Source: a bacterium
Lineage (GTDB): Bacteria; CG2-30-53-67
Assembly (NCBI GenBank): GCA_919901565.1
Contig: CAKKPE010000044.1
Span: forward strand, 1-43,743
DNA: 43,743 nucleotides
Direction of reading: 5' to 3'
A program made the position numbers and the translations under genes. Shown here one piece after another: positions 12,612 to 37,687 of the stretch. The notes beneath the pieces are model-generated. The model saw only the letters and a program-made list of their open reading frames with translations, was not told the DNA's origin and searched no databases. Within the stretch, counting starts at the first letter, position 1. Each line of letters starts with the position of its first letter.

Positions 12612-12652
12612 AAATGAATTGTGCCCGCGGTGCAAGGTTTGTGTTTTGTTCT

Positions 12653-18609: not shown

Positions 18610-19461
18610 TTATGAAAACTCCTTGAGCAGGCTCGTGAACTCCAGCTCCCGGATCAGCTCCATGAGGTTTTCCAATCTCGGCTCATCATACTTGAAGTCC
18701 TCGATCTTGAGCGGAAGCGGAAGGCTTGTATCAATGGTCACGAGCCGCTTGCTGAGGCGCGCCAGATCCTGGTTCTCCCGGATCTTTTCGCCCATCTTCC
18801 CCTTGATCTGATCCGCATGGGCCAGGAGCTTCTCCAGGTCATGATGTTCCTGAATCAGCTTCACAGCCGTCTTCTGACCGATGCCGGGGATGCCGGGGAT
18901 GTTGTCAGAGGAGTCGCCCATGAGGGCCATGACCTCGATCACCCGTGCTGGCTCCACGCCGAAGCGCTCTTTGACCTCCTCCTCGCCGTAGACCTCATCC
19001 TTCATGGTATCGTAGACCTTGACGTGCGGGGTGACGAGCTGCAGGAGATCCTTGTCTCCCGAGACCAGCACCACCTCCAAGCCCTTCTCTTCACCCCTTC
19101 GCGCCAGAGTTCCCAAAACGTCATCGGCCTCATATCCCGCCATTTCGATTTTCGGTATGCCGAATCCATGGACCATCCTCTTGATATAGGGAATCTGGGG
19201 TTTCAAATCGTCCGGCATCTCCGGCCTGTTGGCCTTGTATTCGGCATAGAGTTCGTTCCGGAAGGTCGGCCCCTTGACATCAAAGGCCACGGCCACATAG
19301 TCGGGGCTTTTCTCCTGAATGATCTTCATGAGCATGCGGGTAAACCCGTAGACCGCATTGGTGGGAAGCCCCCTGGAATTGGAGAGGTTCCGGATGGCAA
19401 AAAAGGCCCGGTAGATATACGAGCTGCCGTCAATGAGGTAAAGGGTTTTTCTCTGGGTCAT
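18610..19461 (-). CDS. truncated polA: 5' nuclease domain only
   Basis: These 283 residues match residues 1-283 of the full-length DNA polymerase I in this window with about 50 substitutions. The frame then stops one codon after the shared KEFS. All acidic motifs of the 5' nuclease are kept: LIDGSS, FDVKG, YEADDVLG, GDKDLLQL and GDSSDNIPG. The protein could therefore act as a free flap/5' exonuclease, like the stand-alone Xni/ExoIX type proteins. It has a good ribosome site (GGAGG) and a plausible promoter (19500-19528), signals the full-length copy lacks. I infer it is the original polA 5' end, cut off by the accessory block. Whether it is expressed or decaying is unknown. Confidence 0.88.
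   Translation of the reverse strand: MTQRKTLYLIDGSSYIYRAFFAIRNLSNSRGLPTNAVYGFTRMLMKIIQEKSPDYVAVAFDVKGPTFRNELYAEYKANRPEMPDDLKPQIPYIKRMVHGFGIPKIEMAGYEADDVLGTLARRGEEKGLEVVLVSGDKDLLQLVTPHVKVYDTMKDEVYGEEEVKERFGVEPARVIEVMALMGDSSDNIPGIPGIGQKTAVKLIQEHHDLEKLLAHADQIKGKMGEKIRENQDLARLSKRLVTIDTSLPLPLKIEDFKYDEPRLENLMELIRELEFTSLLKEFS
18614..18627. repeat. 14-bp shared core at the end of truncated polA (junction side 2)
   Basis: GAAAACTCCTTGAG is identical to 11764-11777. Homology between the two polA copies ends here, and the truncated frame meets a TAA at 18610-18612. Confidence 0.5.
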
Positions 19462-22867: not shown

Positions 22868-24079
22868 ATGATTCTCACACGGATCGATTCCATGGCCTAC
22901 GGCGGATACGGCGTGGCTCGGGTCGATGGCTTCGTGCATTTTGTTCCCGGGAGCGCGCCCGGGGACCTCGCGGAGATCGAGCCGGTGGTCCGGAAAAAGC
23001 GCCATGGATTCTCGCGCCTCTGCCGGATTGTGGAGCCTTCTCCCCTTCGAACCGATCCCTTCTGCCCCTATTTCGGCGAGTGCGGAGGGTGCCAGTACCA
23101 GCACATCCGTTATCCGGAACAGCTCAGGATCAAGCAGAAGATCTTTGTTGAGCAGATGAGGCGGATCGGTGGGCTCACGAATATTCCACAGCCGGAAATG
23201 TCCGGCTCAGAGGCAAAGAGGATCCGGATGCGTTTTCATCTGCATGATGGGGATATCGGACTCTACAGGACCAGGAGCCACACCCTCTGCCCGATCCATG
23301 AATGCGGGATCGCATCCCCGCAGGTGAATGCCGTGCTGCAGGAGATACAGGGATTCCTGAAGCGGGATCGAAAGACATTCAACGGCACGATCACTATCCT
23401 TACTTCACCGGCCGGCGCCCTGCTTGCCGCCACCCTTGCTCAAGGCGAGGCTTCAGATCTTTACCAGTCACTCGCTCATGCCGTGCAGGGCTGTACGGTC
23501 CTGGAGCAGGACAAACGGATTGTCCTCGGGGAGCCTTATCTCCCTGTTTCCGTGCGGGGGCTTACCCTTTATGTGCCGCCGGATGCCTTCTCGCAGGTCA
23601 ATCCGGAGATCAACGAAATACTGGTCGGCGGGATCTGTGAATTCATGAAGGGTTCGGAGCAGGTCATGGATCTTTATTGCGGCTGCGGGAACATCACCCT
23701 TCCCCTGTCTCAGGTCTGCACCAGCGTGGTTGGGGTCGAATCGGAACCCGGTTCGGTGGATGCGGCCAGCCACTCCGCATCCATGGCCGGGATCACCAAT
23801 GCTTCTTTCCGGACGGCCGATGTGTTGAAGGCGGAAATCGGGGATGCGGACGGCCTTGTCCTGGATCCGCCCCGCTCCGGACTCCCGGCCTCTTTGATCC
23901 GGAATATCACAAATCAAAGGCCCATGAAAATCGCCTACATCTCCTGCAATCCCTCCACTCTGGCCAGGGATCTTAGCCTTTTTGTGGAAGCGGAATACCG
24001 GATAGATTCAATCCGCCTGCTCGATATGTTTCCCCACACCTACCATATTGAGTCACTAACTTTTTTAGCTGCCGATTAG
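22868..24079 (+). CDS. RlmD/TrmA-family RNA (uracil-5-)-methyltransferase
   Basis: These 403 residues hold an N-terminal TRAM domain (IDSMAYGGYGVARVDGFVHFV), a 4Fe-4S cluster site (C66, C72, C75 in CPYFGECGGCQYQ and a later Cys), and a C-terminal SAM domain with DLYCGCGNITLPL, GVESEPGSVDAA and LDPPRSGL. The catalytic ISCNPSTLARDL sits near the C-terminus. The family methylates C5 of uracil in 23S rRNA (RlmD, position 1939) or related sites. Which uracil is modified cannot be said from sequence alone. The ribosome site is weak. Confidence 0.93.
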   Translation: MILTRIDSMAYGGYGVARVDGFVHFVPGSAPGDLAEIEPVVRKKRHGFSRLCRIVEPSPLRTDPFCPYFGECGGCQYQHIRYPEQLRIKQKIFVEQMRRIGGLTNIPQPEMSGSEAKRIRMRFHLHDGDIGLYRTRSHTLCPIHECGIASPQVNAVLQEIQGFLKRDRKTFNGTITILTSPAGALLAATLAQGEASDLYQSLAHAVQGCTVLEQDKRIVLGEPYLPVSVRGLTLYVPPDAFSQVNPEINEILVGGICEFMKGSEQVMDLYCGCGNITLPLSQVCTSVVGVESEPGSVDAASHSASMAGITNASFRTADVLKAEIGDADGLVLDPPRSGLPASLIRNITNQRPMKIAYISCNPSTLARDLSLFVEAEYRIDSIRLLDMFPHTYHIESLTFLAAD

Positions 24080-24153
24080 AGTTCATCTTCAATTATTGTA
24101 TTCTTTATCGATGGGAATTTATGGATCATCTCCAAAAGAGTGGATGAAAACAT

Positions 24154-24190
24154 AAGGGTTCAAGGGGTCAAGGATTCCAGGGGTCCAGTG
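24154..24190 (-). repeat. dispersed intergenic repeat, copy D (inverted)
   Basis: The reverse complement reads CCTTGACCCCTTGAACCCTT at its end, the same repeated unit as copies A-C. It directly abuts a REP palindrome at 24194. Confidence 0.65.
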
Positions 24191-24193
24191 AAG

Positions 24194-24237
24194 TTAGCGT
24201 AGGTTGGGCTGAACTTGTGAAGCCCAACAACGTTTCA
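24194..24237 (+). repeat. REP palindrome 1
   Basis: TTAGCGTAGGTTGGGCTGAA, then CTTGTGAAGCCCAAC. The arms GTTGGGCT and AGCCCAAC pair. The same element is at 25033 and, inverted, at 25278 around the transposase remnant. Confidence 0.85.
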
Positions 24238-24256
24238 CAGACACCTCTGGTGTTTC

Positions 24257-24658
24257 TCAAAAAAGCCCGGATATGGCTTTGGAGTTTTTTTCGAACCAGG
24301 ATCGGATCTCTTTCAGGGATTGATTACCTGAAGCCACAGAGAGCGTGAAGCGCTCCAGCTCCTTTTGTGATACAGTCAGTTTCCACCCGTTTAATTTCAG
24401 GAATACCGCAGCAGACGTTATGGATACCCTTTTGTTCCCATCCACGAAAGCATGGTTCCCGCAAACGGATTCCATTAATGCAGCGGTTTTTGAAAAAATG
24501 TCAGGATATAACTCCTTCCCTTCGTACGTCGCATGCATTCTTGAAAGCGCAGACTCAAGTAATCCGATATCCCGGACCCCCTGGGATCCGCCCGTAGATT
24601 TAATCAAGCGATTATGGATGAAAAGAACCTGAAGCAGGGATAAACCTTTCAGCTTCAT
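24257..24658 (-). CDS. Fic/Doc-family toxin
   Basis: This is a 133-residue Doc-like protein with the Fic core HAFVDGNKR starting at His69 and an N-terminal IHNRLIKSTGGSQGVRDIGLLESAL block, as in Phd-Doc toxins. Doc enzymes phosphorylate EF-Tu and stop translation. Its ATG overlaps the stop of the AbrB-like gene (ATGA), the usual antitoxin-first order. Here the antitoxin is an AbrB/MazE-type protein rather than Phd, a combination also seen in other genomes. Confidence 0.93.
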   Translation of the reverse strand: MKLKGLSLLQVLFIHNRLIKSTGGSQGVRDIGLLESALSRMHATYEGKELYPDIFSKTAALMESVCGNHAFVDGNKRVSITSAAVFLKLNGWKLTVSQKELERFTLSVASGNQSLKEIRSWFEKNSKAISGLF

Positions 24659-24900
24659 TTGGAGAGTTTCTTTAAGGCCGGTTTGTACTCTTCGATGAAC
24701 TCCCGTACTTCCCGGGCAAACTCGGGAGTGATCCCGCTCTTCCTGATCTCCTTGGCCACGGAGAAGATGAGAATCTGCCCTTTTTCTTCATCCACCTGTA
24801 TTTCAACCTCGGCTCCTTTCTTCAGGCCGAGACGATCAAGGTACTCTTTGGGTATCAGCACGCCTTGACTGTTTCCCATGGCCGTTACTTTTCGTTTCAT
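24655..24900 (-). CDS. AbrB/MazE-family antitoxin
   Basis: This 81-residue protein has the swapped-hairpin DNA-binding fold: VTAMGNSQGVLIPKEYLDRLGLKKGAEVEIQVDEE. The C-terminal tail (FAREVREFIEEYKPALKKLSK) should contact the toxin. It is translationally coupled to the Fic gene and probably represses its own promoter; a small palindrome upstream (24928-24941) is a candidate site. Confidence 0.92.
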   Translation of the reverse strand: MKRKVTAMGNSQGVLIPKEYLDRLGLKKGAEVEIQVDEEKGQILIFSVAKEIRKSGITPEFAREVREFIEEYKPALKKLSK

Positions 24901-24927
24901 AAATCCCCCCGGGGAACATGTAATAAC

Positions 24928-24941
24928 ATTGTTCTTACAAT
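24928..24941. promoter_or_regulatory. possible operator of the toxin-antitoxin pair
   Basis: ATTGT-TCTT-ACAAT, about 28 bases upstream of the antitoxin ATG. It is short, and assigned only by position. Confidence 0.35.
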
Positions 24942-25031
24942 ACTACTGAAAGAAATGGATGTCAATAGAGTATATTAGGGATCCCCCTTTTTTCTTTGTA
25001 GAGTTTCTTTGATCTGTAAAATCGAAAATTT

Positions 25032-25073
25032 AGTTAGCGTAGGTTGGGCTGAGTCTGTGAAGCCCAACGTTTC
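25032..25073 (+). repeat. REP palindrome 2
   Basis: AGTTAGCGTAGGTTGGGCTG, then AGTCTGTGAAGCCCAACG, nearly identical to REP 1. It overlaps the end of the transposase remnant. Confidence 0.85.
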
Positions 25074-25258
25074 ACCCGCTCGATATACCGATGCAGTGTT
25101 GAACACGGCCAATCCACCGCTCGGGCAACCCAGCCATGCCTGACCGGATTGAAGCGGATGTAATCTACATCCCAAATCAGTAAATCGGATTGCCGGTCCG
25201 CCAGATTCACCGTGAAAAAATAACTCTTTCCCGCCGTAACGGCCCGCCGGTAACGCAT
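25034..25258 (-). pseudogene. internally deleted REP-associated tyrosine transposase (RAYT)
   Basis: The N-terminal part MRYRRAVTAGKSYFFTVNLADRQSDLL and the C-terminal part DYIRFNPVRHGWVARAVDWPCSTLHRYI are both typical of the IS200/IS605-related RAYT family. The middle, which would hold the HUH motif and the catalytic Tyr, is missing; about half of the usual length is lost. The reading frame is intact across the deletion. It sits between two REP palindromes in opposite orientation, the known substrates of such enzymes, so it cannot move itself but could be moved by a full copy elsewhere. Confidence 0.85.
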
Positions 25259-25277
25259 AGGTTCATTGACCTCCATT

Positions 25278-25314
25278 CATGTTGGGCTTCACAAGCTCAG
25301 CCCAACCTACGCGG
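25278..25314 (-). repeat. REP palindrome 3 (inverted)
   Basis: ATGTTGGGCTTCACAAGCTC, then AGCCCAACCTACGC: the reverse complement of REP 1 and 2. Together with REP 2 it brackets the RAYT remnant. Confidence 0.85.
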
Positions 25315-25316
25315 GC

Positions 25317-25505
25317 TCATTCTTTGATGTGTTTGTGAATTGAATTCTCAATTGCTTGAAACCAATCTAAGTAATCACCTACCGACTCTTCAACCAAAAT
25401 AACCTCTTTCTTGGTGAGGGCGCGTTCAAGAACTTGTTTAGCTACTTCTTGAATATCACCAACATTTATCGAATAAACGAATCTATCGTTGCTGCCATTT
25501 TTCAT
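25317..25505 (-). CDS. small hypothetical protein coupled to the HNH gene
   Basis: This 62-residue protein begins MKNGSNDRFVYSINVGDIQEVAKQVLERAL and ends in an acidic-aromatic stretch (ESVGDYLDWFQAIENSIHKHI). No family is recognised. Its ATG overlaps the HNH gene stop (ATGA), so translation is coupled. It may be a control or immunity-like partner, but that is a guess. Confidence 0.65.
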   Translation of the reverse strand: MKNGSNDRFVYSINVGDIQEVAKQVLERALTKKEVILVEESVGDYLDWFQAIENSIHKHIKE

Positions 25506-26443
25506 TGAATATCCCCTTGGTGAAAAATGTTCTGGCGATGCCATCGAATTGCATTGTGATGCGGATGGAGTTCACTTCTACCCGGCAAAAATATTCGAGA
25601 ACTTTTGCTCGACAATGCTCGAATGAATTCATAATCTCCAAGTCTTCCAAAATCTGATGGCAAAGAATGAACTTTTGACGAAACGTTAATCGTGTAGTCA
25701 TCTCGCAATGTGAACCAACCAACATCGAAAGCCCAGTGATGTAAGTGACACAACGCTAATCCATTCCAAATATCATCTCGCCCCAGAGAACTATGGGGAA
25801 CAATATGGGCGGCTTCAACCTCCCACGATAGAGAATCGGGTGAATTGATTTTCATTTCGCAAATAGCACACTTGCAACTGTATGCTTCAATAACTGCCTG
25901 ACGAAACCCTCTCGTTCGTATGGCGGATTCTCTAGTTGCTTTGATAACTTTCTTTCCCTTATCAAATGGATTGTAGTTTTCAGGTCGTGGCGATTCAATC
26001 AACTTCTTTACAATCTTCTGAACTTCGTAAGACTTAGTTGGTAAGAAACTCTTTCTTGCAGTAGGTATGTTTGAAAGCTTTAGTGTTTCATCAAAGCCTT
26101 TCTCCGTTAGCATCCATTCCTTTTTCTTCGTGAGTTGGAGTGTCTTTGTCGGACGTGAAACCAATTTCTCTTTTGCCAAGGAATCCGCTGCTCGAAAAAG
26201 TAATCTATGCCAGAGGAGAGATTTCTTAACACGATTCTCTTTACGATATACTGTCTGCAAGAAGGCAGAGCGTTGATGCTCATTTAGTCCAAAGTCATTC
26301 GCTATTTCATCAACGATTTCTTGTCCGGCACCAAACTCTTTGATGACTCCTCCATGGCTCAGCAACGCTCGAAGCAAGGATTGCTCAACTTGTTTCCGTG
26401 TTGGCATGGCAAACTGTTCAAACATTTTGCTTTCGTAACTCAT
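25502..26443 (-). CDS. HNH endonuclease, putative restriction enzyme
   Basis: This 313-residue protein starts with a winged-helix-like region similar to the Mrr N-terminus (MPTRKQVEQSLLRALLSHGGVIKEF). The C-terminal HNH nuclease shows C192-x2-C195, EAAHIVPHS (His213 and His217), NGLALCHLHHWAFD (Asn227, His235/His236, Asp240). It resembles predicted type II or modification-dependent restriction enzymes of COG3440. The start is two bases after the stop of the damaged methyltransferase frame. The gene itself shows no lesion although its probable methylase is broken. It is AT-rich relative to the window. Confidence 0.85.
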   Translation of the reverse strand: MSYESKMFEQFAMPTRKQVEQSLLRALLSHGGVIKEFGAGQEIVDEIANDFGLNEHQRSAFLQTVYRKENRVKKSLLWHRLLFRAADSLAKEKLVSRPTKTLQLTKKKEWMLTEKGFDETLKLSNIPTARKSFLPTKSYEVQKIVKKLIESPRPENYNPFDKGKKVIKATRESAIRTRGFRQAVIEAYSCKCAICEMKINSPDSLSWEVEAAHIVPHSSLGRDDIWNGLALCHLHHWAFDVGWFTLRDDYTINVSSKVHSLPSDFGRLGDYEFIRALSSKSSRIFLPGRSELHPHHNAIRWHRQNIFHQGDIQ

Positions 26444-26445
26444 TG

Positions 26446-27159
26446 TTACCCTTTATTCAGCTTTTGCTTTCTATACAAATTCGTCTTCGCCCCGTTGCAT
26501 TCAGTTGCTAAATGCAAAACATTTGCGTGGGAAGACAATATCTCTGCCAATCCAGTTTGCTATCTTTTTCCCGAAACCGCTTCCCACTCTTGAATTATCA
26601 CGTCTCAAATCGGTTTCGCTTAAGTTTCTTAACCTTGTTTTAGCCCAGTCACCTACTGGGACCATCTCTTCTTCTTGGTACATATTAAATTTTTTTCTTT
26701 TATTGAATTGTAAGAGTCTTTCCCAAGCATCTCTGAACCTGTTGGGCCATTTTCCAGGATAGCAATTTTTTTGTGCCAAATAAATTCCTCTGTCCACAAC
26801 CATCCCTGTTTCCTCATTTCCAAGATTAGCTCTATGACATAAGTATGTCTTTCACCATCTACGACCTTTTCTTTGATATTCAATATAAAAGTTCCAGAAG
26901 GCTTCAAAACACGAAGAAGCTCTGCGGTTATCGGCAAAAACCATTCAACGTAATTATTCGGTTTTATCCCGCCATATGTGTCAGACCTGCTGTCAGCGTA
27001 GGGAGGGGAAGTTACAATAAGATCAACGGAGTTATCCTCCAACTTTTTCAAGATATTCTTGCAATCTCCCAGCAAGGTTTTTGCTGTAATTTCTTTTATT
27101 GGTTGTATATTTTTTTTATATGTTACATCTGTTCTTCTTTGTTTCTGATATACTTCCAT
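26446..27159 (-). pseudogene. DNA methyltransferase broken by two frameshifts
   Basis: The intact part has AKTLLGDCKNILKKL, the catalytic motif IV TSPPYADSRSD, and ELLRVLKPSGTFILNI, typical of beta-class N4-cytosine/N6-adenine methylases. At an A7 run near 26766-26772 the frame is off by one: the protein should go on from WHKK to NCYPGKWPNRFRDAWERL in the next frame. A second one-base lesion near 26520 separates IVFPR from NVLHLATEC, the usual C-terminal block. The reconstructed protein ends at 26446, two bases before the HNH start, so this was one operon. The start MEVYQKQRR at 27159 is preferred. Sequencing error in the homopolymer is possible for the first lesion. Confidence 0.82.
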
Positions 27160-27301
27160 ATTCTCCGTCCTCATTTAAAGGGAATTGATTTCGTAATATA
27201 CCATATTTCAGATGAGGTAGGATAGGAAATAAAATAGGGACAACTTGGCTGTTGAAAAAGCCTGCCTTTGTCTTTCGATCGCGTCATGGGGATGTTGTGA
27301 G

Positions 27302-27327
27302 AAATTAGGGACAACTGTCCCTAATTT
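27302..27327. other. palindrome next to the endoQ 3' remnant
   Basis: Perfect 12-base arms AAATTAGGGACA / TGTCCCTAATTT with an AC centre. A partial copy (AATAGGGACAACTT) lies at 27233-27246. Such TTAGGGACA palindromes are often linked to transposase-type repeats; the stop codon of the remnant lies in the right arm. Confidence 0.7.
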
Positions 27328-27424
27328 AATCCCTCTCACTCGGTTCAAAGATTTTTATCTTTCCATACTCCCCGTCATACCCGGGGTCGATATGGACCTT
27401 GCCTTCGCTGACGCGGCGGACCGC
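27326..27424 (-). pseudogene. 3'-end remnant of an endonuclease Q gene
   Basis: The minus strand encodes KAVRRVSEGKVHIDPGYDGE and then YGKIKIFEPSERD followed by a stop. This matches the end of the endoQ gene at 29272 (AVRRVREGKIHIDPGYDGEY and on), differing at a few residues and at the extreme C-terminus. Upstream in the frame is a stop codon, so only about 33 codons survive. It lies directly downstream of uvrD (27476), so uvrD is bracketed by an endoQ gene and an endoQ 3' fragment. The stretch 27175-27475 holds no other gene. Confidence 0.85.
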
Positions 27425-27475
27425 CTTGATATAGTATCCTTATTCAATGGAAATGCTTTGGCCGGGGAGAGCATC

Positions 27476-29275
27476 TCAGAAAAGACCGAGCTGCGGATTC
27501 TCTTTCTGAGGCGGCCTGCTCTTCTTTTGAAGGATATTCGCCTGAAACAGGGCCTCTTCGATATCCTTGAGAAAGGGGGAGGGTTCGCCGGGCAGGGGCT
27601 TGCCGTAGAGGATTCTTTTTCTTGCATGAAGAAGGTAGAGCTCTTTCATGGCCCGCGTGATCCCCACGTGAAAGAGCCGCCGTTCTTCTTCGATCTCATC
27701 GGCTGAAGGATTCCCGTCCCGGGCATACGGCATCAATCCGCGTTCCAGCCCGCAGATGAAGACCACGGGGAACTCCAGGCCCTTGGCGGCGTGCATGGTC
27801 AGGAGGGTCACGGCCTGCGCCCTGGGGTCGAAGAGGTCGCTTTCACGGCCCAGGCTGAGGTCCTGGAGAAAAAAGGGGAGGGCGCTTCCCCATGTCTGGT
27901 CCGGGTAATGAGAGGCCATGGCCTTGAGAGACCGCAGGGTGGCCTCATCGAGATTGCAGATGCCGGAGAGTTCCCGGATCAAATCCTGGAGGGAACTCTG
28001 CTCCCTGTTCTTTGAAAGTGCAATCAGGGATGCCTTGATCATCGCCGGGAGGACGGCATCCTTCTCAGGATCGGCAAGGAACCGCAGCATAGGCCGGACT
28101 TGCCTCATCTCAGGGCGGCGGTCGAGCCGCTCCCCGCTCAGGAACCTGCAGGGGATCCCGGCTTGTTCAAAGGCTGCTTGCAGGGGGCGGGCCTGGGCGC
28201 GAAGCCGGAAGAGCACGGCCATGTCCGAGAAGCTGTACTGGCCGGGATCTTCCCCGGCCTGGACCCGGTCGGTGTCGTGATGAAACATACTGGTCCCGCC
28301 CAGGAGTTTCTCGATCCGGGAGACGATCCATCCCGCCTCCTGTTTCTCGTCGCCCACCTCCATGATCCGGATCCTCTCGCCGGTTTCTGCATCAGACCAG
28401 AGCCTCTTCTCCATGCGGAGCGTATTTCTGCTGACCACCTGTTCCGCGGCCTTCACGATCACGGGCGAGGACCGGTAGTTCTGCTCGAGCCTGAGGATCT
28501 GCGCCCGGGGATAATCCTCCTGGAAATTCAGGAAGTTTTCCACCTGAGCGCCCCTGAAGGCATAGATGGCCTGGTCCGCATCCCCGACCACGCAGAGGTT
28601 CTGGTCCGGTCCCGTGAGGAGATGGACGAGCATGTACTGCGGCGGATTCAGGTCCTGGTATTCATCCACCAGGATATGCCGGAACCGGTCCATATATCGA
28701 TTGAGTATCTCGGGGTATGTCTCGAAGAGCCGGAGCACCAGGAGGATGAGATCATCGAAGTCCGCGGCGTTTCTTTGCTTGAGGGCGGCCTGGTACTCTG
28801 AAAAGAGCGGAGGGGCCCCGGTTTCTGCACGGTGCCGGTTCTTGAATGCCGAGATCTGCTTCAGGCAGGCCCTGGCCTCGGCGCGGTTTTTTGCCCCGGC
28901 CTCTCTCAGGAGATCGATCTGCTCCTCATCGGTCAGAATCACAAAATCCCGGTCATAGCCGAGTACCGGGATCTCTTCGCGGAGAATCTTCGCACAGACC
29001 GAATGGAATGTCCCGATCTCCTGGAGCATGGATTCTTTTTCTCCGAGCAGATGGGCGATCCTTTGTTTCATCTCCCATGCGGCCCGTCGGGTGAAGGTGA
29101 GGGCCAGGATGTTTGCGGGGTCCACCCCCGCCTCACGGACCAGATAGGCGATCCGGCAGGTCAGGGTGCGGGTCTTTCCGGTCCCGGCCCCGGCCACGAT
29201 CATGAGTGGGCCCTGCGTGTGGCAGACCGCTTGCCTCTGCTGGGGATTGAGCTCGTTCAGGAATTCAAGGCTCAT
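27476..29275 (-). CDS. UvrD/PcrA-like SF1A helicase paired with endonuclease Q
   Basis: This 599-residue protein is short for UvrD (usually above 650) and lacks the Tudor tail. Motifs are LNPQQRQAV (Q motif), GAGTGKT (29-35), FTRRAAWEMKQRI, VDEYQDLNPPQ, VGDADQAIYAFRGA, QNYRSSPVI, MHAAKGLEFPVVFI and VGITRAMKELYLLHAR. The extreme C-terminus reads NPQLGLF, which fits the bacterial sliding-clamp-binding consensus QL(S/D)LF. The ATG overlaps the endoQ stop (ATGTAA region, four bases), so the two are coupled. It likely unwinds DNA at the nick made by its partner; this is inference. Confidence 0.93.
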   Translation of the reverse strand: MSLEFLNELNPQQRQAVCHTQGPLMIVAGAGTGKTRTLTCRIAYLVREAGVDPANILALTFTRRAAWEMKQRIAHLLGEKESMLQEIGTFHSVCAKILREEIPVLGYDRDFVILTDEEQIDLLREAGAKNRAEARACLKQISAFKNRHRAETGAPPLFSEYQAALKQRNAADFDDLILLVLRLFETYPEILNRYMDRFRHILVDEYQDLNPPQYMLVHLLTGPDQNLCVVGDADQAIYAFRGAQVENFLNFQEDYPRAQILRLEQNYRSSPVIVKAAEQVVSRNTLRMEKRLWSDAETGERIRIMEVGDEKQEAGWIVSRIEKLLGGTSMFHHDTDRVQAGEDPGQYSFSDMAVLFRLRAQARPLQAAFEQAGIPCRFLSGERLDRRPEMRQVRPMLRFLADPEKDAVLPAMIKASLIALSKNREQSSLQDLIRELSGICNLDEATLRSLKAMASHYPDQTWGSALPFFLQDLSLGRESDLFDPRAQAVTLLTMHAAKGLEFPVVFICGLERGLMPYARDGNPSADEIEEERRLFHVGITRAMKELYLLHARKRILYGKPLPGEPSPFLKDIEEALFQANILQKKSRPPQKENPQLGLF

Positions 29276-30558
29276 GTAAACAGCCCCATCTGCCCGGAGG
29301 CCAAGGTGCGCTCTTCCGGCTCAAAGATTTTGATCTTCCCATACTCCCCGTCATACCCTGGGTCAATATGGATCTTGCCTTCGCGGACGCGGCGGACCGC
29401 TTCGGCCAGTTCATTGGAAATCGCCTGTGCGATCCCGGTCACGGGGGCCGCGGTCAGGACCGTATATTCATTCCCCAGGGCCGAGAGGGTGCGCATATAT
29501 TCCTTCTGGACCCGCTTGCTCCCCACCCCCACATTGAAGACCTCGGCGATGATCTCCTGCAGGGGGACCAGGCTCTGAAAGGGTTTGGCGGCCGGAGGCT
29601 TGTGGTCCTTTGGCCTGTCTGACAGATCCTCGACCCGGTGGAGCACGCCCACTACGATCTTACGGCCGCATTTCGGGCAGAGGCCGTTGTAGCCTCGGGT
29701 CTGCTCCGGTGTTGAACGAAGCCCGCATGACCGGTGTCCGTCATAATGATATTTCCCCTCTTCGGGAAAGAATTCAATGGTCCCCAGAAAAGTCTTCGAG
29801 TTCCGGTCCGCTCGGAGGGCCTCGCGTACCGCGGGATAAGAGAGGTCCGTATCGAAGAGATTGGCCTCGCGCATGAGTTTAGCCGGGGAATGGGCATCGG
29901 AATTCGAAATCAGGGTGAACCGGTCCAGTCCGGAGAGGCGCCAGTTCATAGGGGGATCAGAGGAAAGGCCGGTCTCGATGGCCGGGATGGCTGAGGCCAG
30001 ATCCCCGTAGCACTCCTCAATGGATGAGAAACGGGAGAAAGCCCCGAGCACCGAGAAGTGCGGGGTCCAGGCATGGGCCGGGATCAGGATATTTTCCGGG
30101 GAAGCCTCCATGGTGATCTGCAGAAGGTCCCGGCTGTCGAGCCCCAGGATGGGGCGTCCGTCGGACTTGAGGTTCCCGATGCCCGACAGGGCCTCGTTGA
30201 TCTTTGCGGCCGAGGCGAGGTCCCGGGCCAGGATCAGGTTGTGAACCTTGCGTGTCTGACCGTCCCTGGAATAGATGCAGGAAACCTCGGCCGAAAGCAT
30301 GAACCGGATCTCTCCCCTGCAGGATGCAGGGATTTCCTCGTCCTTGCGGTTGCTTTCCTTGAGTGAAAAAAGCCCCTCCTCCGCAGGGGCGAGCTTGTTT
30401 CCGATCTCCGCAAACCATGCCGGGTGGGTGAAGTCCCCTGTGCCCAGAAGGGTGATCCCCTTGAGCTGTGCCCACTGGTCGAGGTTCGGGAGCGTCATCT
30501 GCGGACTGGTGGAGCGGGAGTAGGGGGAATGGATATGCAGATCGGCGATGAATTTCAT
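29272..30558 (-). CDS. endonuclease Q family protein (PHP domain)
   Basis: The 428-residue protein has a PHP phosphoesterase domain (DLHIHSPYSRSTS at 7-19, TGDFTHP, AHAWTPHFS, SNSDAHSP). A zinc site with C278, C294 and C297 (CGLRSTPEQ and NGLCPKCGRK) follows, then a helical C-terminal region. EndoQ from Pyrococcus and Bacillus cuts 5' to deaminated bases such as hypoxanthine and uracil. The C-terminus is SGQMGLFT, a clamp-binding-like motif parallel to the PCNA-binding motif of archaeal EndoQ. It is the first gene of an endoQ-uvrD pair. Confidence 0.93.
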   Translation of the reverse strand: MKFIADLHIHSPYSRSTSPQMTLPNLDQWAQLKGITLLGTGDFTHPAWFAEIGNKLAPAEEGLFSLKESNRKDEEIPASCRGEIRFMLSAEVSCIYSRDGQTRKVHNLILARDLASAAKINEALSGIGNLKSDGRPILGLDSRDLLQITMEASPENILIPAHAWTPHFSVLGAFSRFSSIEECYGDLASAIPAIETGLSSDPPMNWRLSGLDRFTLISNSDAHSPAKLMREANLFDTDLSYPAVREALRADRNSKTFLGTIEFFPEEGKYHYDGHRSCGLRSTPEQTRGYNGLCPKCGRKIVVGVLHRVEDLSDRPKDHKPPAAKPFQSLVPLQEIIAEVFNVGVGSKRVQKEYMRTLSALGNEYTVLTAAPVTGIAQAISNELAEAVRRVREGKIHIDPGYDGEYGKIKIFEPEERTLASGQMGLFT

Positions 30559-30720: not shown

Positions 30721-30731
30721 CATTGTATAGT
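30703..30731 (+). promoter_or_regulatory. sigma70-type promoter of the restriction/CBASS locus
   Basis: TTGACA (30703-30708) and TATAGT (30726-30731) are separated by exactly 17 bases. Expected transcription start is about 30738, leaving a leader of about 18-24 bases before the ATGs at 30756 and 30762. Confidence 0.75.
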
Positions 30732-30755
30732 CTGCTGGAATTTTTTGCTGGCGAT

Positions 30756-32600
30756 ATGTACATGAATAATATATCGGAACTCCTCATAGAACTTCGCAAA
30801 CGTCTTGGCCTAAGCCAGGAAAAGTTTGCCGCCCGCCTGAAAGTCTCACTGCCGACCATTAACCGCTGGGAGAAGGGCAAAACAAAGCTAAACACCTTAG
30901 CGCTCCACGCGATTGAAAAGTTAGTCCAAGAGTTGGGACCTGAGTATGCCGATCTTTACAATGTCTATTTTGGAACGACTAAACCAGTGGAACAAGGTTC
31001 TGTCCCCCGTAGAACACAGGTCAAAGGTACCATTCTCGATACCAAATCCATGGAAAATCTTCTCTGGAAGGCGGCCTGTTCGATTCGTGGCGAAAAAGAC
31101 GCACCGAAATTCAAAGACTATATCCTGCCGCTGATCTTTATCAAACGCCTTTCCGATGTTTTTGAGGATGAGATCGCGCGTCTTATCGAAGAATACGGCG
31201 AGAAGGATGCGTCGACGATGCTCGAAGCCGACCGAAAAGATCTGGTCCGATTTTATATTCCGCCGGAGGCGACCTGGCCGGTCGTGAGCGGTCGGGAAAA
31301 AATTGACTGGCCGGAAGGGAAAAGACCTAAGACTTTAGGGGAGCAGCTCACCTATACCGTCCGCTCCATCACAAAAGCAAATCCTTCTCTTCAGGGTGTT
31401 ATCGACATCGTGGACTACAACGAAGTCCGAAACGGTGAACGCGAGATCAGCGACGAGGCCATCTCACGCCTCATCGAACTGCTGAGCGATCCCAAGTATC
31501 GGCTTGGACTGAAGGATGTTGAACCGGACTTTTTGGGGCGGGCTTATGAATACTTGCTTCGGAAATTTGCCGAGGGACAGGGCCAGAGCGCCGGAGAGTT
31601 TTTCACACCCAAAGAGGTCGGTTGGCTGATGGCCTATCTCATGCAGGGTAAACAAGGAGAAGAGGTTTACGACCCGTGTTGCGGCTCAGGCGGGCTGCTG
31701 ATTAAATGCGAACTGGCCCTTAACGAACGAGAAAAGGAAATCGCTCGGCCGCTCAAGTTGTATGGACAGGAATGGACCGGATCCTCCTTCGCCATTGCAA
31801 GAATGAACATGATCCTGCATGATATGGAGGGAGAAATTGCGCGCGGAAACACGATGACGAACCCGAAATTTCTGGATGATTCGAGCCTCAGGCAATTCGA
31901 CATCGTGGTCACCAATCCGATGTGGAACCAGAAAAATTTCGACGAGGCTACGTATGAGAACGATCCCTACGAGCGATTCGCGACCCAAGGAGGCTTTGCG
32001 CCTTCCTCCAGCGCCGACTGGGCGTGGCTTCAGCATGTGCTGGCTTCTCTGAAGGAGGACGGCCGGGCCGCGATGGTGATCGATACCGGCGCTGCAAGCC
32101 GGGGCAGCGGGAATCAGGGCGAGAACAAGGAGAAGGCAATCCGCCGATGGTTTGTCGAGCAGGACGGGATCGAAGGGGTCATCCTGCTGCCGGACAACCT
32201 TTTCTATAACACCTCTGCCGCGGGCATCATTATTGTCCTGAATCGAAAGAAGCCGAAAGGTCGAAAGGGTAAGATCGTTCTGGTCAATGCAAGCGGAGAG
32301 TTTCAGAAAGGCAGGCCCAAGAACTTTATCCCCGATGAATCCATCAAGAAAATCGCCGACGCCTTTCATGCGGGCAAGGACATGGACCGGTTCGTCAAGG
32401 TTGTTGGCGTCGAAGAGATCGCCAAGAAGGACTATAATCTCTCGCCCTCCCGTTATATCGAAACCGCCGCTGCGACCGAGCATCGGGACGTGCAGACCTT
32501 GCTGGATGAGTTGGCGAAACTGGATACCGAAGCAAAGCGATTGGATGGGGAGCTGAAAGAGATCTTTACGGAACTGGGGTACAAGTGGAAAGAGCATTGA
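30756..32600 (+). CDS. hsdM: HsdM with N-terminal XRE helix-turn-helix
   Basis: This is a modification subunit of a type I restriction-modification system, a SAM-dependent N6-adenine methylase. Unusually, residues about 4-60 form an XRE-type helix-turn-helix (ISELLIELRKRLGLSQEKFA, LKVSLPTINRWEKGKT). A linker leads to the HsdM N-domain (MENLLWKAACSIRGEKDAPKFKDYILPLIF), then SAM motif I DPCCGSGGLLIKC and catalytic motif IV NPMWNQKNF. The open frame extends back to 30723, but that overlaps the -10 box, so I use the ATG at 30756 (30762 also possible). It is followed by hsdS with a TGATG overlap. The fused regulator with a palindrome at its own promoter suggests built-in expression control. Confidence 0.93.
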   Translation: MYMNNISELLIELRKRLGLSQEKFAARLKVSLPTINRWEKGKTKLNTLALHAIEKLVQELGPEYADLYNVYFGTTKPVEQGSVPRRTQVKGTILDTKSMENLLWKAACSIRGEKDAPKFKDYILPLIFIKRLSDVFEDEIARLIEEYGEKDASTMLEADRKDLVRFYIPPEATWPVVSGREKIDWPEGKRPKTLGEQLTYTVRSITKANPSLQGVIDIVDYNEVRNGEREISDEAISRLIELLSDPKYRLGLKDVEPDFLGRAYEYLLRKFAEGQGQSAGEFFTPKEVGWLMAYLMQGKQGEEVYDPCCGSGGLLIKCELALNEREKEIARPLKLYGQEWTGSSFAIARMNMILHDMEGEIARGNTMTNPKFLDDSSLRQFDIVVTNPMWNQKNFDEATYENDPYERFATQGGFAPSSSADWAWLQHVLASLKEDGRAAMVIDTGAASRGSGNQGENKEKAIRRWFVEQDGIEGVILLPDNLFYNTSAAGIIIVLNRKKPKGRKGKIVLVNASGEFQKGRPKNFIPDESIKKIADAFHAGKDMDRFVKVVGVEEIAKKDYNLSPSRYIETAAATEHRDVQTLLDELAKLDTEAKRLDGELKEIFTELGYKWKEH

Positions 32601-33928
32601 TGAAATCGAATTTCGTTGAGTTTGAAGATTTGAATGCTACAAAAACTGGGGATGGCATCCCTGATGGCTGGGATACCAGCACCCTTCGGTCTCTGTGCCG
32701 GAGAGCCGGAACTACCGATCCTACCAAGAATCCGAATCTATCGTTTGAATACGTGGATGTTTCGTCTATTTCAAATGAACTTTGGAAAATCACAACTACG
32801 ACTCGACATACGGGGGCAACCGCTCCCAGTCGTGCACGCAAGTTTGTTCAGGTACGGGATGTCATTTTCGCGACGGTTAGACCCACCCTTAAACGCGTCG
32901 CTCTGGTGCCTAACGATCTTGACGGTCAAATCGTCTCCACCGCTTTTTGCGTCCTTCGTGCCGATCCCGCAAAAGCCGATTCCCACTTCCTTTATTATTC
33001 GCTCTTAACAGATGACTTCATCGCGCGGATGGAAAATTTGCAACGAGGGGCCAGTTATCCTGCTGTGGCAGATAGTGATGTCTTAGAACAGGAAATCCCT
33101 GTTCCTCCCCTCCCAGAACAACGCGCGATTGCGGCGGTGCTGGCGAAGATCCATGCAGCGATGGAGGTACAGGATAAAATCGTCGCCACGCTCAAAGAAC
33201 TCAAAGCCGCGACCATGGCCAAACTCTTCCGCGAAGGCCTCCGCGGCGAGCCGCTCAAGCAGACCGAGATCGGTGAGATGCCGGAGAGTTGGGGGGTAAA
33301 AAGTATAGGGCAAGTCTTCGAATTCACCACCAAGCATAGAGGTCTTCGATTTGAAAACTATGAGTCAATCCCATTTATTCCGATGGATCTAATTCCTTTA
33401 GATCGCCTTTTCTTCTCCGACTTCGTTCTCAGAAAACCTAAGGAGATCACAAGCGGGACCTACTTTGAGGAAGGCGATTTGCTTGTTTCCAAAATCACAC
33501 CGTGCTTCGAGAACGGAAAACAAGGAATCCCGACAAAAATCCCGGGAGCTTTTGGTATTGCTACAACCGAGGTGGTTCCGATTAAAGCCAAAGAAGAAGT
33601 GAGCCATTTACCCTTCCTTGCAATGTATTTGCTGGATTCTGAAGTCAGGAACAGTTTGGCGGGCAAAATGGAAGGAGCAACGGGTCGTCAGCGACTCTCG
33701 AAATCAGTACTGGAAGAATGGCCAATACCGTTTCCCTCTTTTTCAGAACAACGTGACATCGCAAATGTTCTATTGAAAATCCAAGCGATGGAAGAGTCCA
33801 ATTCAAAGAAACGGGATATCCTCAAATCCCTCTTCTCTTCCATGCTCCACCTGCTCATGACCGGCCGGGTGAGGGTAACCAACTTAACTGAAAGCCGGTC
33901 AATAAATCAGGAGAAAAAAAATGAGTAA
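32600..33928 (+). CDS. hsdS: HsdS, type I specificity subunit
   Basis: About 442 residues with two target recognition domains, each followed by a conserved helical segment: PPLPEQRAIAAVLAKIHAAMEVQDKIVATLKELK at about 170-205, and FPSFSEQRDIANVLLKIQAMEESNSKKRDILK near the end. The start overlaps the hsdM stop (TGATG). Each target domain should read half of a bipartite site. The next gene (CD-NTase) starts eight bases before the hsdS stop, so translation continues into the CBASS genes. Confidence 0.94.
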   Translation: MKSNFVEFEDLNATKTGDGIPDGWDTSTLRSLCRRAGTTDPTKNPNLSFEYVDVSSISNELWKITTTTRHTGATAPSRARKFVQVRDVIFATVRPTLKRVALVPNDLDGQIVSTAFCVLRADPAKADSHFLYYSLLTDDFIARMENLQRGASYPAVADSDVLEQEIPVPPLPEQRAIAAVLAKIHAAMEVQDKIVATLKELKAATMAKLFREGLRGEPLKQTEIGEMPESWGVKSIGQVFEFTTKHRGLRFENYESIPFIPMDLIPLDRLFFSDFVLRKPKEITSGTYFEEGDLLVSKITPCFENGKQGIPTKIPGAFGIATTEVVPIKAKEEVSHLPFLAMYLLDSEVRNSLAGKMEGATGRQRLSKSVLEEWPIPFPSFSEQRDIANVLLKIQAMEESNSKKRDILKSLFSSMLHLLMTGRVRVTNLTESRSINQEKKNE

Positions 33929-35000
33929 CCTAACCGATCTGCTGCAAGTTCTGGGTGAAGTTAAAACCAAGAACGTCTCAAATACTTTCGAGCAATTTCT
34001 GGACAAAGAGATCAATATCTCAAAAGGGATTCGCAGTCTGGCCAGTGTAAGCCAAAATCATATTCGAGATTTTCTTGCATCCGAATGCAAACGGGATTTC
34101 ACGTTTCCGAGGGTTCTGTCAATTGCGGATTCGGACTTTCTTGGAGGATCATTCGCTCGCCACGCGAAGATCTGGCCGCTGGATGACATAGATATCTACC
34201 TACCATTAGATGGACTTGATCTGTTTTACATTCAAAATGGACTCCGTCTTCCGTATACGGTCATTTCCGATAATGTTCTTAAAACAAACCCTCTGCTGAA
34301 TCGTCGTTGGATGAACGGCTCGTTAATATCTTCTGTAAAACTCATCAACGAGTTTGCGGCTGTATTGCGGCGTCATTACCCGAAGGAGACAGGAGTCAGA
34401 TCAAACGGCGAAGCTATCAGCGTAAGGATGTCCCAATGTGCTACGAAAACAGGCGACGGCTTGGGATACGATGTTGTTCCATGTTTCCTGTTGAAGCCTT
34501 TCAATGCTGGTGAGCTGCCCTTTTATCTGATGCCAGATGGAAATGATGGCTGGCTTCGGACTAACCCCAAAATTGATGCTGAAATCTCAGACCAACTACA
34601 CGCGGATAACAACAAAACCTTTCGAAAGGTAGTAAAGCTCATCAAATACTGGAACGCTAAAAGCTTAGGAGGGACATTAAATTCGTACTATATCGAACTG
34701 GCTGTAGCCAGGGTTTTCCTCGAAAAAAATAAAATTGGAGAGAACATCCGATCCATCTCTTTCGGAGTCGCATTAGGGTTTTGGGCCTTGGATAGGGCTG
34801 TCCAGCAGGGCAATCAGATTGCCTGGATTTCGAACGCTCCCCACGCCGAACCTGGGCAATTAAATTCTTTGAACCGCATCCTACTGTCCATGGCTGTCTC
34901 AAATGCAAGATCTGCTTGGGACCTTGAGAGACAAGGGAACGAAGGAGGTGCCATTCAGGCCTGGGCTAAAGTCTTTGGCGACGCCTTCCTGTCGTCGTAG
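33921..35000 (+). CDS. CD-NTase (cGAS/DncV-like nucleotidyltransferase) of a CBASS
   Basis: This 359-residue protein has the nucleotidyltransferase core GGSFARHAKIWPLDDIDIYLPL: GGS at 75-77, DID with Asp89 and Asp91. The third metal-binding acid is Asp184 in GLGYDVVPCFLL, followed by an OAS1-C-like helical part (KTFRKVVKLIKYWN). CD-NTases make cyclic di- or trinucleotides on phage infection. AGGAGAAAAAAA precedes the ATG, which overlaps hsdS. The product nucleotide cannot be told from sequence. Its effector is the next gene. The location inside a type I restriction operon is notable. Confidence 0.9.
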   Translation: MSNLTDLLQVLGEVKTKNVSNTFEQFLDKEINISKGIRSLASVSQNHIRDFLASECKRDFTFPRVLSIADSDFLGGSFARHAKIWPLDDIDIYLPLDGLDLFYIQNGLRLPYTVISDNVLKTNPLLNRRWMNGSLISSVKLINEFAAVLRRHYPKETGVRSNGEAISVRMSQCATKTGDGLGYDVVPCFLLKPFNAGELPFYLMPDGNDGWLRTNPKIDAEISDQLHADNNKTFRKVVKLIKYWNAKSLGGTLNSYYIELAVARVFLEKNKIGENIRSISFGVALGFWALDRAVQQGNQIAWISNAPHAEPGQLNSLNRILLSMAVSNARSAWDLERQGNEGGAIQAWAKVFGDAFLSS

Positions 35001-35009
35001 GAAAAGGAC

Positions 35010-35834
35010 ATGAACTTGATCGATGCCATGAGAACTGAATATGGAAGGAGCAAGCGCTTCTGGCACTGGAGCCTGGGTTTTAGCCTTTTATTATATCTTC
35101 TGGCTGCCTTGAGCGTCTTTTACTCTGCCGGTTGGGGTGTGAAAACGATTGGAGTCATTGCTTTTATCATACAAATCCTACTTTTCTTTTCTCGTGCGCT
35201 CACGGGGCGTCACTTCTCATTGGGAGAGCAGATTCGTAGGCTTGCCATGCTGAACGACGGTTTGGGTAAGTCTCCATCCGAACTCCAGCTTGCCAAATTG
35301 AAGGAGAAGATCGGGGTAATAGAGACTGATGAGCCTGCATACGTTGGACCTTACTATGAATCAAAGTTACCGGTAGGACCTAAGCGCCTATTGGAGATCG
35401 TGGCAGAGTCCGCATTCTTTACTAGCGGACTCGCACGGACCAGCGTCTATGTATTTGGGGTAATCTCGATCGTGGGTGTCCTCCTGGTTTTCACCGGCCT
35501 TATCTTCGTTCTCAAAACTGAACTCTCTCAATCCAACTTGGACGCTGCAGCGAAAATTGCAGTTATAAGCATGGCTTTTTGGGCAACGGGTGACCTTGCA
35601 TCAACTGCTCTTCGTTTCAATTCTTTAGCAAACGCCTCTGAAAAAATTCTCGATCAATGTGGATATTTCCTCACGCAAGCGGGTGATTGCCGTGATGAGG
35701 CTCATGCAACTGCCGCGGAATACAACTGCGCCGTAATCCAAACGCCACCCATTCCAGCGTTCATCTATAAGTGGCGACAGAATATTTTAAACGAGGCATG
35801 GCGTAACAGAAAAGCGAAAGCGAGCACGACATAA
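35010..35834 (+). CDS. S-4TM-type CBASS membrane effector
   Basis: These 274 residues hold four hydrophobic segments at about 19-40, 43-62, 145-168 and 179-201, in two pairs separated by a cytosolic region. That region contains YVGPYYESKLPVGPKRLLEIVAESAFFT, which looks like the SMODS-associated 4TM (S-4TM) family signature. Such effectors are thought to open or disrupt the inner membrane when the cyclic nucleotide binds. The gene begins nine bases after the CD-NTase stop with AAAAGGA before the ATG. No further CBASS ancillary gene (Cap2/Cap3, HORMA/TRIP13) is present, so this is the minimal two-gene type. Confidence 0.85.
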   Translation: MNLIDAMRTEYGRSKRFWHWSLGFSLLLYLLAALSVFYSAGWGVKTIGVIAFIIQILLFFSRALTGRHFSLGEQIRRLAMLNDGLGKSPSELQLAKLKEKIGVIETDEPAYVGPYYESKLPVGPKRLLEIVAESAFFTSGLARTSVYVFGVISIVGVLLVFTGLIFVLKTELSQSNLDAAAKIAVISMAFWATGDLASTALRFNSLANASEKILDQCGYFLTQAGDCRDEAHATAAEYNCAVIQTPPIPAFIYKWRQNILNEAWRNRKAKASTT

Positions 35835-35909
35835 ATGCCGGGTAATTTTGGCAATGAACACCTGTCCACGCAATGCCCGCTGATCGCCTATGCTGTGGAG
35901 ATCATCTAA
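35835..35909 (+). pseudogene. hsdR 5'-end remnant (24 codons)
   Basis: The frame MPGNFGNEHLSTQCPLIAYA-VEII-stop matches the start of full hsdR at 37688 (MPNLGNERPTVQDPLIGYAVEIG): about 15 of 23 aligned positions are identical, and the DNA around GCCTATGC-GTGGAGATC matches best. It lies where hsdR would be expected directly after the CBASS genes. The AlbA-type ATPase gene starts three bases after its stop and separates it from the full hsdR. Confidence 0.85.
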
Positions 35910-35912
35910 TCT

Positions 35913-37577
35913 ATGACTGCCATCTTAAACAAACTCCGCGAATGGATGGAAGGCAAGGAGGATGAGCACCTTGAATTCAAGGAGGCGAAGAACCGCTTTG
36001 ACTTTGAGGAATTGGTAAAGTACTGTGCGGCGATTGCAAATGAAGGTGGCGGGAAATTAATCCTCGGTGTAACGAATAAACGACCGCGGCGAGTGGTCGA
36101 CTGTCGTGCATTCGAAAGTCTGGAACGTACCAAGGCCGGTTTGACTGAACGGTTGCATCTGCGTTTTGAGATTGATGAGATCGAACACCCGAATGGTCGT
36201 GTTCTTGTTTTCCACGTTCCTTCCCGTCCCATCGGTATGCCAATTCAATACAGAGGATCGTATTGGATGCGGGCCGGCGAAGGTCTCGTGCCCATGACTC
36301 CGGATAGGCTAAAACGAATCTTCGATGAAGCCGGGCCCGATTTCTCCGCTGAGATTTGTTCTCACGCAGCCCTTTCTGACCTGGACCCCACCGCAATTCA
36401 GCGTTTTCGCGCGATGTGGCAACGAAAATCCGGGAATGAAGCCATCGATAAAGTTACCGATGAACGGCTTTTGGCGGATGCAGAGCTGGTTGTGGACGGT
36501 CGCGTGACCTATGCAGCACTTATCCTTTTGGGCACCCGGCAGGCGCTCGGCAAACACTTGGCCCAGGCCGAGGTGATTTTCGAGTACCGGTCCAGCGAAG
36601 CCTCGATCCCTTCTCAGCAACGCAAAGAGTATCGTCAAGGCTTCTTTCTCTTTGATGAGGACTTGTGGAACACGATTAACCTTCGTAATGATATCCAACA
36701 TTTTCAGGATGGGCTCTTTGTTTGGGATATTCCTACTTTTAACGAACTGGTGGTTCGTGAAGCCATTCTGAATGCGGTCAGTCACCGTGATTATCGCCTG
36801 GCCGGTTCCGTTTTTGTCCGTCAGTTTCCACGAAAACTGGAGGTCATCAGCCCGGGCGGCTTTCCTCCGGGCGTGAATGCAGAGAACATCCTGATAAAGC
36901 AAGTTCCCCGGAATCGCCGCATCGCGGAGGCATTTGCCAGATGCGGATTGGTCGAACGTGCAGGTCAAGGAGCAGACCGGATGTTCAGGCAATGCATCAG
37001 AGAGAGCAAACCACGTCCGGACTTCTCGCAGACGGATGATTACGAAGTTTTCCTCACGCTCAAGGGAGATGTTCAAGACCCCGTTTTCCTGCGATTCCTT
37101 GAGAAGATCGGAAAAGAAACTTTAGCTACATTCACACTTGAAGATCTTCTTGCTTTAGATATGATTCACAGAGAGCAAAAGATTCCTTTGGATTTGAAGG
37201 AACGGCTGCCTGGTTTAAAGGACCAAGGCGTTATCGAGATCATTGGACATGGAAAAGGAACCCGTTATCTTCTCTCAAGACGTTTCTACCAGTTCATGGG
37301 CAAGAAAGGTACTTATACCCGAAAACGCGGCCTTGACCGCGAAACGAATAAGACGCTTTTGCTTAAACATATCGAAGAGAACAAAACAATGGGAAGTCCG
37401 CTTCGGGAACTCATGCAAGTTTTGCCCGCTTTGTCCCGGCAACAGGTACAAGTCCTGCTTCGGGAATTGAGATCTGATGGACAGATTCACAGTGTCGGTG
37501 CGACACGGGGAGGCCGTTGGTACTCTGGGCCAACTTCTTCTGGAATTGCTTCTAATAAAGATACCAAGAAGCAATGA
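35913..37577 (+). CDS. AlbA_2/Schlafen-type ATP-binding protein
   Basis: This 554-residue protein has an N-terminal AlbA_2 (Slfn-like) domain (EDEHLEFKEAKNRFDFEELVKYCAAIANEGGGKLILGVTNKR, about 16-55). A GHKL-like ATP-binding domain follows (VREAILNAVSHRDYRLAGSV, ISPGGFPPGV, CGLVERAGQGADRM), and winged-helix-like segments lie at the C-terminus. Proteins of this layout are often found inside type I restriction loci, but their biochemical role is not settled. It sits between the hsdR remnant and full hsdR and appears to be an insertion. A 10-bp inverted pair (AATTGCTTCT at 37544, AGAAGCAATT at 37578) spans its 3' end. Confidence 0.9.
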   Translation: MTAILNKLREWMEGKEDEHLEFKEAKNRFDFEELVKYCAAIANEGGGKLILGVTNKRPRRVVDCRAFESLERTKAGLTERLHLRFEIDEIEHPNGRVLVFHVPSRPIGMPIQYRGSYWMRAGEGLVPMTPDRLKRIFDEAGPDFSAEICSHAALSDLDPTAIQRFRAMWQRKSGNEAIDKVTDERLLADAELVVDGRVTYAALILLGTRQALGKHLAQAEVIFEYRSSEASIPSQQRKEYRQGFFLFDEDLWNTINLRNDIQHFQDGLFVWDIPTFNELVVREAILNAVSHRDYRLAGSVFVRQFPRKLEVISPGGFPPGVNAENILIKQVPRNRRIAEAFARCGLVERAGQGADRMFRQCIRESKPRPDFSQTDDYEVFLTLKGDVQDPVFLRFLEKIGKETLATFTLEDLLALDMIHREQKIPLDLKERLPGLKDQGVIEIIGHGKGTRYLLSRRFYQFMGKKGTYTRKRGLDRETNKTLLLKHIEENKTMGSPLRELMQVLPALSRQQVQVLLRELRSDGQIHSVGATRGGRWYSGPTSSGIASNKDTKKQ

Positions 37578-37687
37578 AGAAGCAATTGCGATTTACAACT
37601 ATATGTTTTGTAAGCGTTTTATTGCTTTATGGGTTTGCTGTATTATGCTTCCTTCCATGCAATTCCAGAGCAAAATGAAGGAGAACG

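Follow-up and report, generated by a model that had tools for sequence, protein, structure and literature searches.

The endoQ 3' end recurs in decayed form beyond uvrD in a bacterial endoQ-uvrD locus

EndoQ and described cases of displaced 3' ends

EndoQ enzymes cut DNA on the 5' side of deaminated bases. Characterised EndoQ is a PHP-family endonuclease (PDB 5zb8, 7k30; PMC4858679). Archaeal EndoQ uses its C-terminus to bind PCNA, and bacterial homologues have been noted to carry clamp motifs (PMC4858679). Two recombination routes documented in E. coli, homology-facilitated illegitimate recombination (HFIR) and circularisation of a fragment followed by a single crossover, can place a second, partial copy of the anchor gene beside the DNA that they insert (PMC3240628). 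A related arrangement is known from Vibrio T6SS and Rhs loci, which hold orphan immunity genes as well as displaced 3' ends and in which a new 3' end and a downstream gene enter by upstream homology and the old 3' end is left behind, shifted downstream (PMC5361080, PMC3967940). For instance, Kirchberger and colleagues described T6SS effectors whose 3' end was replaced together with the gain of a new downstream gene, the old 3' end being pushed downstream (PMC5361080). A literature search found no study of EndoQ-UvrD.

The window, that is, the whole 43,743-nucleotide stretch analysed here, encodes an EndoQ that matches PfuEndoQ (5zb8/7k30) over nearly its full length (phmmer, E 4e-53, residues 5-416). 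It also resembles the characterised enzyme in its C-terminal clamp-like motif, a feature of most but not all EndoQ members, which the current gene carries as QMGLF and the remnant described below lacks. It differs in being bacterial, in being partnered by a UvrD-type helicase, and in scoring 179 bits against NCBIfam TIGR00375, under the curated cut-off of 326.6; this cut-off was held to be non-decisive, as the model is not named for EndoQ and its scope may be narrower. The start codon (ATG) of uvrD overlaps the endoQ stop codon (Table 1). Among the endoQ-locus sequences examined, a strict Q..LF-type C-terminus ends 21 of 27 UvrD matches versus none of five housekeeping PcrA proteins. From these termini we infer that EndoQ and its linked UvrD may both dock on the sliding clamp.

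Table 1. Features of the endoQ-uvrD locus and its surroundings (positions in the window)
Feature	Position	Strand	Remarks
endoQ, intact, 428 aa	29272..30558	(-)	ORF; ends ...FEPEERTLASGQMGLFT and stop; C-terminus is a QMGLF clamp-binding-like tail
Repeat copy 1, 84-nt block in the current endoQ 3' end	29317..29400	(-)	
uvrD, 599 aa, endoQ-linked short UvrD	27476..29275	(-)	Pfam UvrD-helicase, E 4e-79; C-terminus ...NPQLGLF and stop (QLGLF)
Spacer, uvrD stop to repeat, 51 nt	27425..27475	(-)	Weak endoQ-like continuation or junction sequence
Translated remnant match to endoQ residues 384-418	27329..27433	(-)	E 2e-13; no ORF listed
Repeat copy 2 (remnant), 84 nt of the endoQ 3' end, directly beyond uvrD	27341..27424	(-)	92% identity, E 2e-28
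Palindrome AAATTAGGGACAACTGTCCCTAATTT, ends the remnant	27302..27327	(.)	Folds as a strong hairpin
Low-GC insert	24134..27327	(.)	Fic, MazE-like, HNH, N6/N4 methylase, repeats; parts rlmD from the remnant

Anatomy of the repeat and its remnant

The 3' end of endoQ is present twice, on either side of uvrD, as the first-pass annotation had claimed. The two 84-nt copies are identical at 77 of 84 positions, with seven mismatches and no gaps, in the same strand and frame. A search of the whole genome with the block returned the second copy at E 2.0e-28 and no third copy, and chance similarity was rejected on this value. Five of the seven nucleotide differences are synonymous. Two amino-acid differences separate the copies, one of which places Ser in the remnant at a position that is Arg in 93 of 93 relatives compared.

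The remnant translates as KAVRRVSEGKVHIDPGYDGEYGKIKIFEPSERD followed by a stop. It had been annotated as 33 codons with a stop of their own; the stop is there, at the edge of a palindrome, but clear homology extends over 28 codons only (about 30 with E-R). No ATG, GTG or TTG start was found in its open stretch. With the start codon absent and the invariant residue lost, the possibility of a working gene was rejected: the second copy is a non-functional scar and no longer a gene. The active unit is endoQ-uvrD, and the remnant has no role as a protein. Within the spacer, a 12-nt stretch weakly resembles the matching part of endoQ (ATTTCCATTGAA vs ATTTCCAATGAA; shuffle p 0.012); 9 additional nt and an in-frame TAA come next.

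The near-perfect palindrome, AAATTAGGGACAGTTGTCCCTAATTT, starts within the remnant's stop codon and supplies two of its three bases. This stop therefore need not be the ancestral stop of the gene, the clamp tail may be absent through truncation at the palindrome rather than through ancestry, and the missing tail is thus no proof of an ancestral tail-less gene. No exact copies of the palindrome were found elsewhere in the genome, and it was therefore not tied to any repeat family.

The repeat might be an artefact, a chimeric joint or strain mixing in a draft or metagenome-derived genome, and the assembly is indeed a draft of 160 contigs. However, the region lies in the middle of a 43.7 kb contig, and the copies, which differ at 7 of 84 sites, have no exact match longer than 20 nt, too little to mislead an assembler at the usual word lengths. 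This is the least probable of the explanations considered. It could also be imagined that the copies delimit an excisable cassette, in which a crossover between the two 84-nt blocks deletes tail and uvrD at once and so serves as a loss switch. The computed product of this crossover is an open, tail-less endoQ of 418 aa with FEPSERD at its C-terminus, which resembles the family's form (see below). Nonetheless, the brevity of the exact match, the loss of the invariant Arg from the remnant, and the lack of a recombinase inside make such a switch very improbable. A site-specific integrative element was likewise rejected, only uvrD and no recombinase being present between the copies.

Ancestry and composition of the locus

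The locus was compared with those of seven other genomes of the phylum: one congener (G001), four members of the same family (G002-G005), and two class-mates (G006, G007). Relatives with a tail-less endoQ and no adjoining uvrD, which the first-pass annotation had proposed looking for, are present: all four same-family genomes with endoQ (G002-G005) have this form, the genes ending ...IRIFDGPAE, ...IRIPD, ...IGIGV and ...IRIFDELEA, each followed by a stop. In these four genomes rlmD is convergent with endoQ and close by, and in the window the remnant lies on the side of rlmD (22868-24079); the remnant is therefore in the native position. In both class-mates, endoQ is fused to or adjacent to UvrD. 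The congener has no assembled endoQ locus: one of its contigs breaks off some 350 nt past rlmD, exactly here, a second begins within hsdR, and a uvrD-less state of the genus was thus unseen in the sole congener compared.

The genes of the low-GC insert have GC3 values of 38-52%. An element of about 75 nt at 24116-24194, just after rlmD, has dozens of copies in this genome (G000) and in G001, and a REP-type transposase-like frame begins at about the same place after rlmD in G001. On the other side of endoQ, a type I restriction system spans 30723-40588, and its hsdS and hsdR are separated by a CBASS-type cyclase-like gene (33921-35000); the G001 contig that starts inside hsdR is 90% identical from the end of hsdR onwards.

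Adjacency or fusion of endoQ and UvrD was counted at 35 of 85 informative loci in a wider sample; these come from many phyla, including Nitrospirota, Omnitrophota, Bacillota, Chloroflexota, Gemmatimonadota and KSB1. The unit of the window (27476-30558) is one instance of an adjacent, overlapping or fused pair of endoQ and a short UvrD that recurs across phyla (L027-L106, L123, L124). Most of the endoQ genes compared encode the Q..LF tail, and nearly all paired EndoQ proteins carry a clamp-binding-like motif. Pair and tail are thus old and widespread, and the event in the window did not create them. The proposal that the event added the clamp motif is weakened by the antiquity of tail and pair and by the possible truncation at the palindrome. 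An association between tail and uvrD adjacency was not relied on, as its p value depends on the motif (0.12 for the strict motif; 0.006 for a relaxed motif picked by eye afterwards) and ignores kinship. No endoQ 3' remnant was found in the flanking DNA examined at 97 other loci (weak matches at L068 were not of the 3' end), and a search of viral contigs found no relatives.

In phylogenetic trees, whole endoQ is sister to the endoQ of the family with a support of 100, and alignment columns 1-300, 300-412 and 340-412 each group with the family (support 96-100; 96 for 340-412). Columns 370-412 give a tree without resolution. Up to about codon 370, the body of endoQ has thus been inherited vertically within the family. 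The GC3 of endoQ (75.5%) and of uvrD (76.3%) is that of host core genes (68-78%), and remains at 63-85% along endoQ. No break near codon 390 was seen in GC3 or in sliding identity along endoQ; past about codon 370 the resolution is too low. The window's uvrD stands without a close relative and apart from the class-mate f2 UvrD; this evidence marks it neither as ancestral in the family nor as coming from any named source.

Arrival of uvrD together with a new endoQ 3' end from a distant lineage would fit the lack of uvrD at this locus in the family, and a uvrD that has no close relative and stays apart from that of the class-mate f2. Against such a donor, the current 3' end is identical to the remnant at 77 of 84 positions versus at most 61 of 84 for any other relative, GC3 is host-like, and endoQ columns 340-412 group with the family. 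A distant donor is accordingly disfavoured by composition, tree and copy identities, and is improbable.

Recombination between alleles and tandem duplication

The best other relative is identical to the current copy at 61 of 84 positions and to the remnant at 64 of 84. Neither copy is closer to the family, from which both are equally distant. In 84-nt windows of same-genus orthologues (G000 vs G001), the mean identity is 84% for rlmD and 88% for rlmI. The copies are each other's closest relatives and their 77/84 identity falls within the range of same-genus orthologues, and their divergence is therefore of about same-genus depth. A donor, if there was one, was probably of the same genus, given that the copies are nearest each other and that neither is closer to the family.

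Our tentative preference, held at somewhat less than even confidence, is for an exchange between endoQ alleles of the same genus, by HFIR or a single crossover, that left the old 3' end behind. On this view, DNA of a close relative that carried an endoQ 3' end with its clamp tail and then uvrD would have recombined into the resident endoQ. On one side it would have paired by homology within endoQ; on the other it would have been joined illegitimately, or else the incoming DNA would have closed into a circle and integrated through one crossover. What results would be an endoQ of full length, with the resident body and perhaps the incoming 3' end, then uvrD, and then the displaced resident 3' end, which would since have decayed into the untranslated DNA after uvrD. 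As expected of such a route, uvrD has part of its presumed anchor gene repeated at its side, and it is absent at endoQ in four family genomes. The direction of the event, the same-genus donor and the crossover route are what we infer from this layout; they are read from the DNA alone, and duplication can yield the same picture. Relative to the Vibrio T6SS and Rhs loci, the gene is a repair gene, the event is single, its direction is unproven, toxin-immunity selection is absent, and the displaced end is dead.

The layout of the repeat, the tail-less and uvrD-less locus of the family, the native-side position of the remnant, the same-genus level of identity and the synonymous bias all speak for this exchange. 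Speaking against it, neither copy is nearer to the family, no break was located in endoQ, and the remnant's loss of the tail may come from the palindrome. The annotated idea that uvrD came with a replacement endoQ end agrees with the family's locus and the remnant's position, but composition and phylogeny, which show no break up to about codon 370, speak against its strong form.

A partial tandem duplication is almost as likely. The pair endoQ-uvrD would then already have been present in the genus, a unit from about codon 388 of endoQ to the end of uvrD would have been doubled, and the second tail and second uvrD would later have been deleted or replaced by the low-GC insert, so that only the 3' fragment stays. 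This accords with copies that are mutually nearest relatives, with uniform composition, with a pair that is ancient in many phyla, and with a remnant cut at the palindrome, where a deletion or insertion evidently occurred. However, it requires one further step, the second deletion, and nothing left of another uvrD or tail was found beyond the remnant. Additionally, a predominance of synonymous differences fits less well with decay of one copy from the outset: under neutral decay from birth, two or fewer amino-acid changes arose in only 6-9% of simulations, a weak test resting on seven sites (p about 0.06-0.09). This tilts the balance slightly towards two alleles that had diverged under selection and were joined later, and away from duplication and decay.

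The likeness that had been drawn to polA holds in outline only. The 5' 283 codons of polA (9942-12635) recur at 18610-19461 with 82% protein and about 81% DNA identity, and UvrD-like and DEAD/H helicase genes lie between the copies; unlike uvrD, these have a foreign composition, with GC3 values of 39-43. The exonuclease frame that stands apart is intact and slightly nearer to the family's polA (77.0, 74.6%) than is the N-terminus of the full gene (72.8, 70.7%). The low-GC helicases and the intact left-out frame therefore point to an event of a different sort from that at endoQ. A polA exonuclease-domain match is missing in G001, G002 and G005 (three of five other family genomes), perhaps through assembly gaps.

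A recombination or duplication scar between near-identical genes is an ordinary type of event, and neither same-genus exchange nor duplication is categorically new. The remnant does not show that the helicase is of distant origin. The scar illustrates, in a small but clear case, how a 3' end may be swapped together with the gene downstream of it at loci other than those of toxins. It is conceivable, if rather doubtful, that clamp tail and UvrD partner are gained or lost as one unit by recombination at a conserved block (GYDG...IF) close to the 3' end of endoQ; were this so, the scar of the gain would still be visible here, and a crossover between the repeats would restore the tail-less, helicase-less form of the family. 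More useful is the recurrent pair of endoQ and a short UvrD, found in many phyla, often fused or overlapping, and mostly with clamp-binding-like motifs, which suggests that a clamp-tethered repair route, first nicking and then unwinding, may operate in bacteria.
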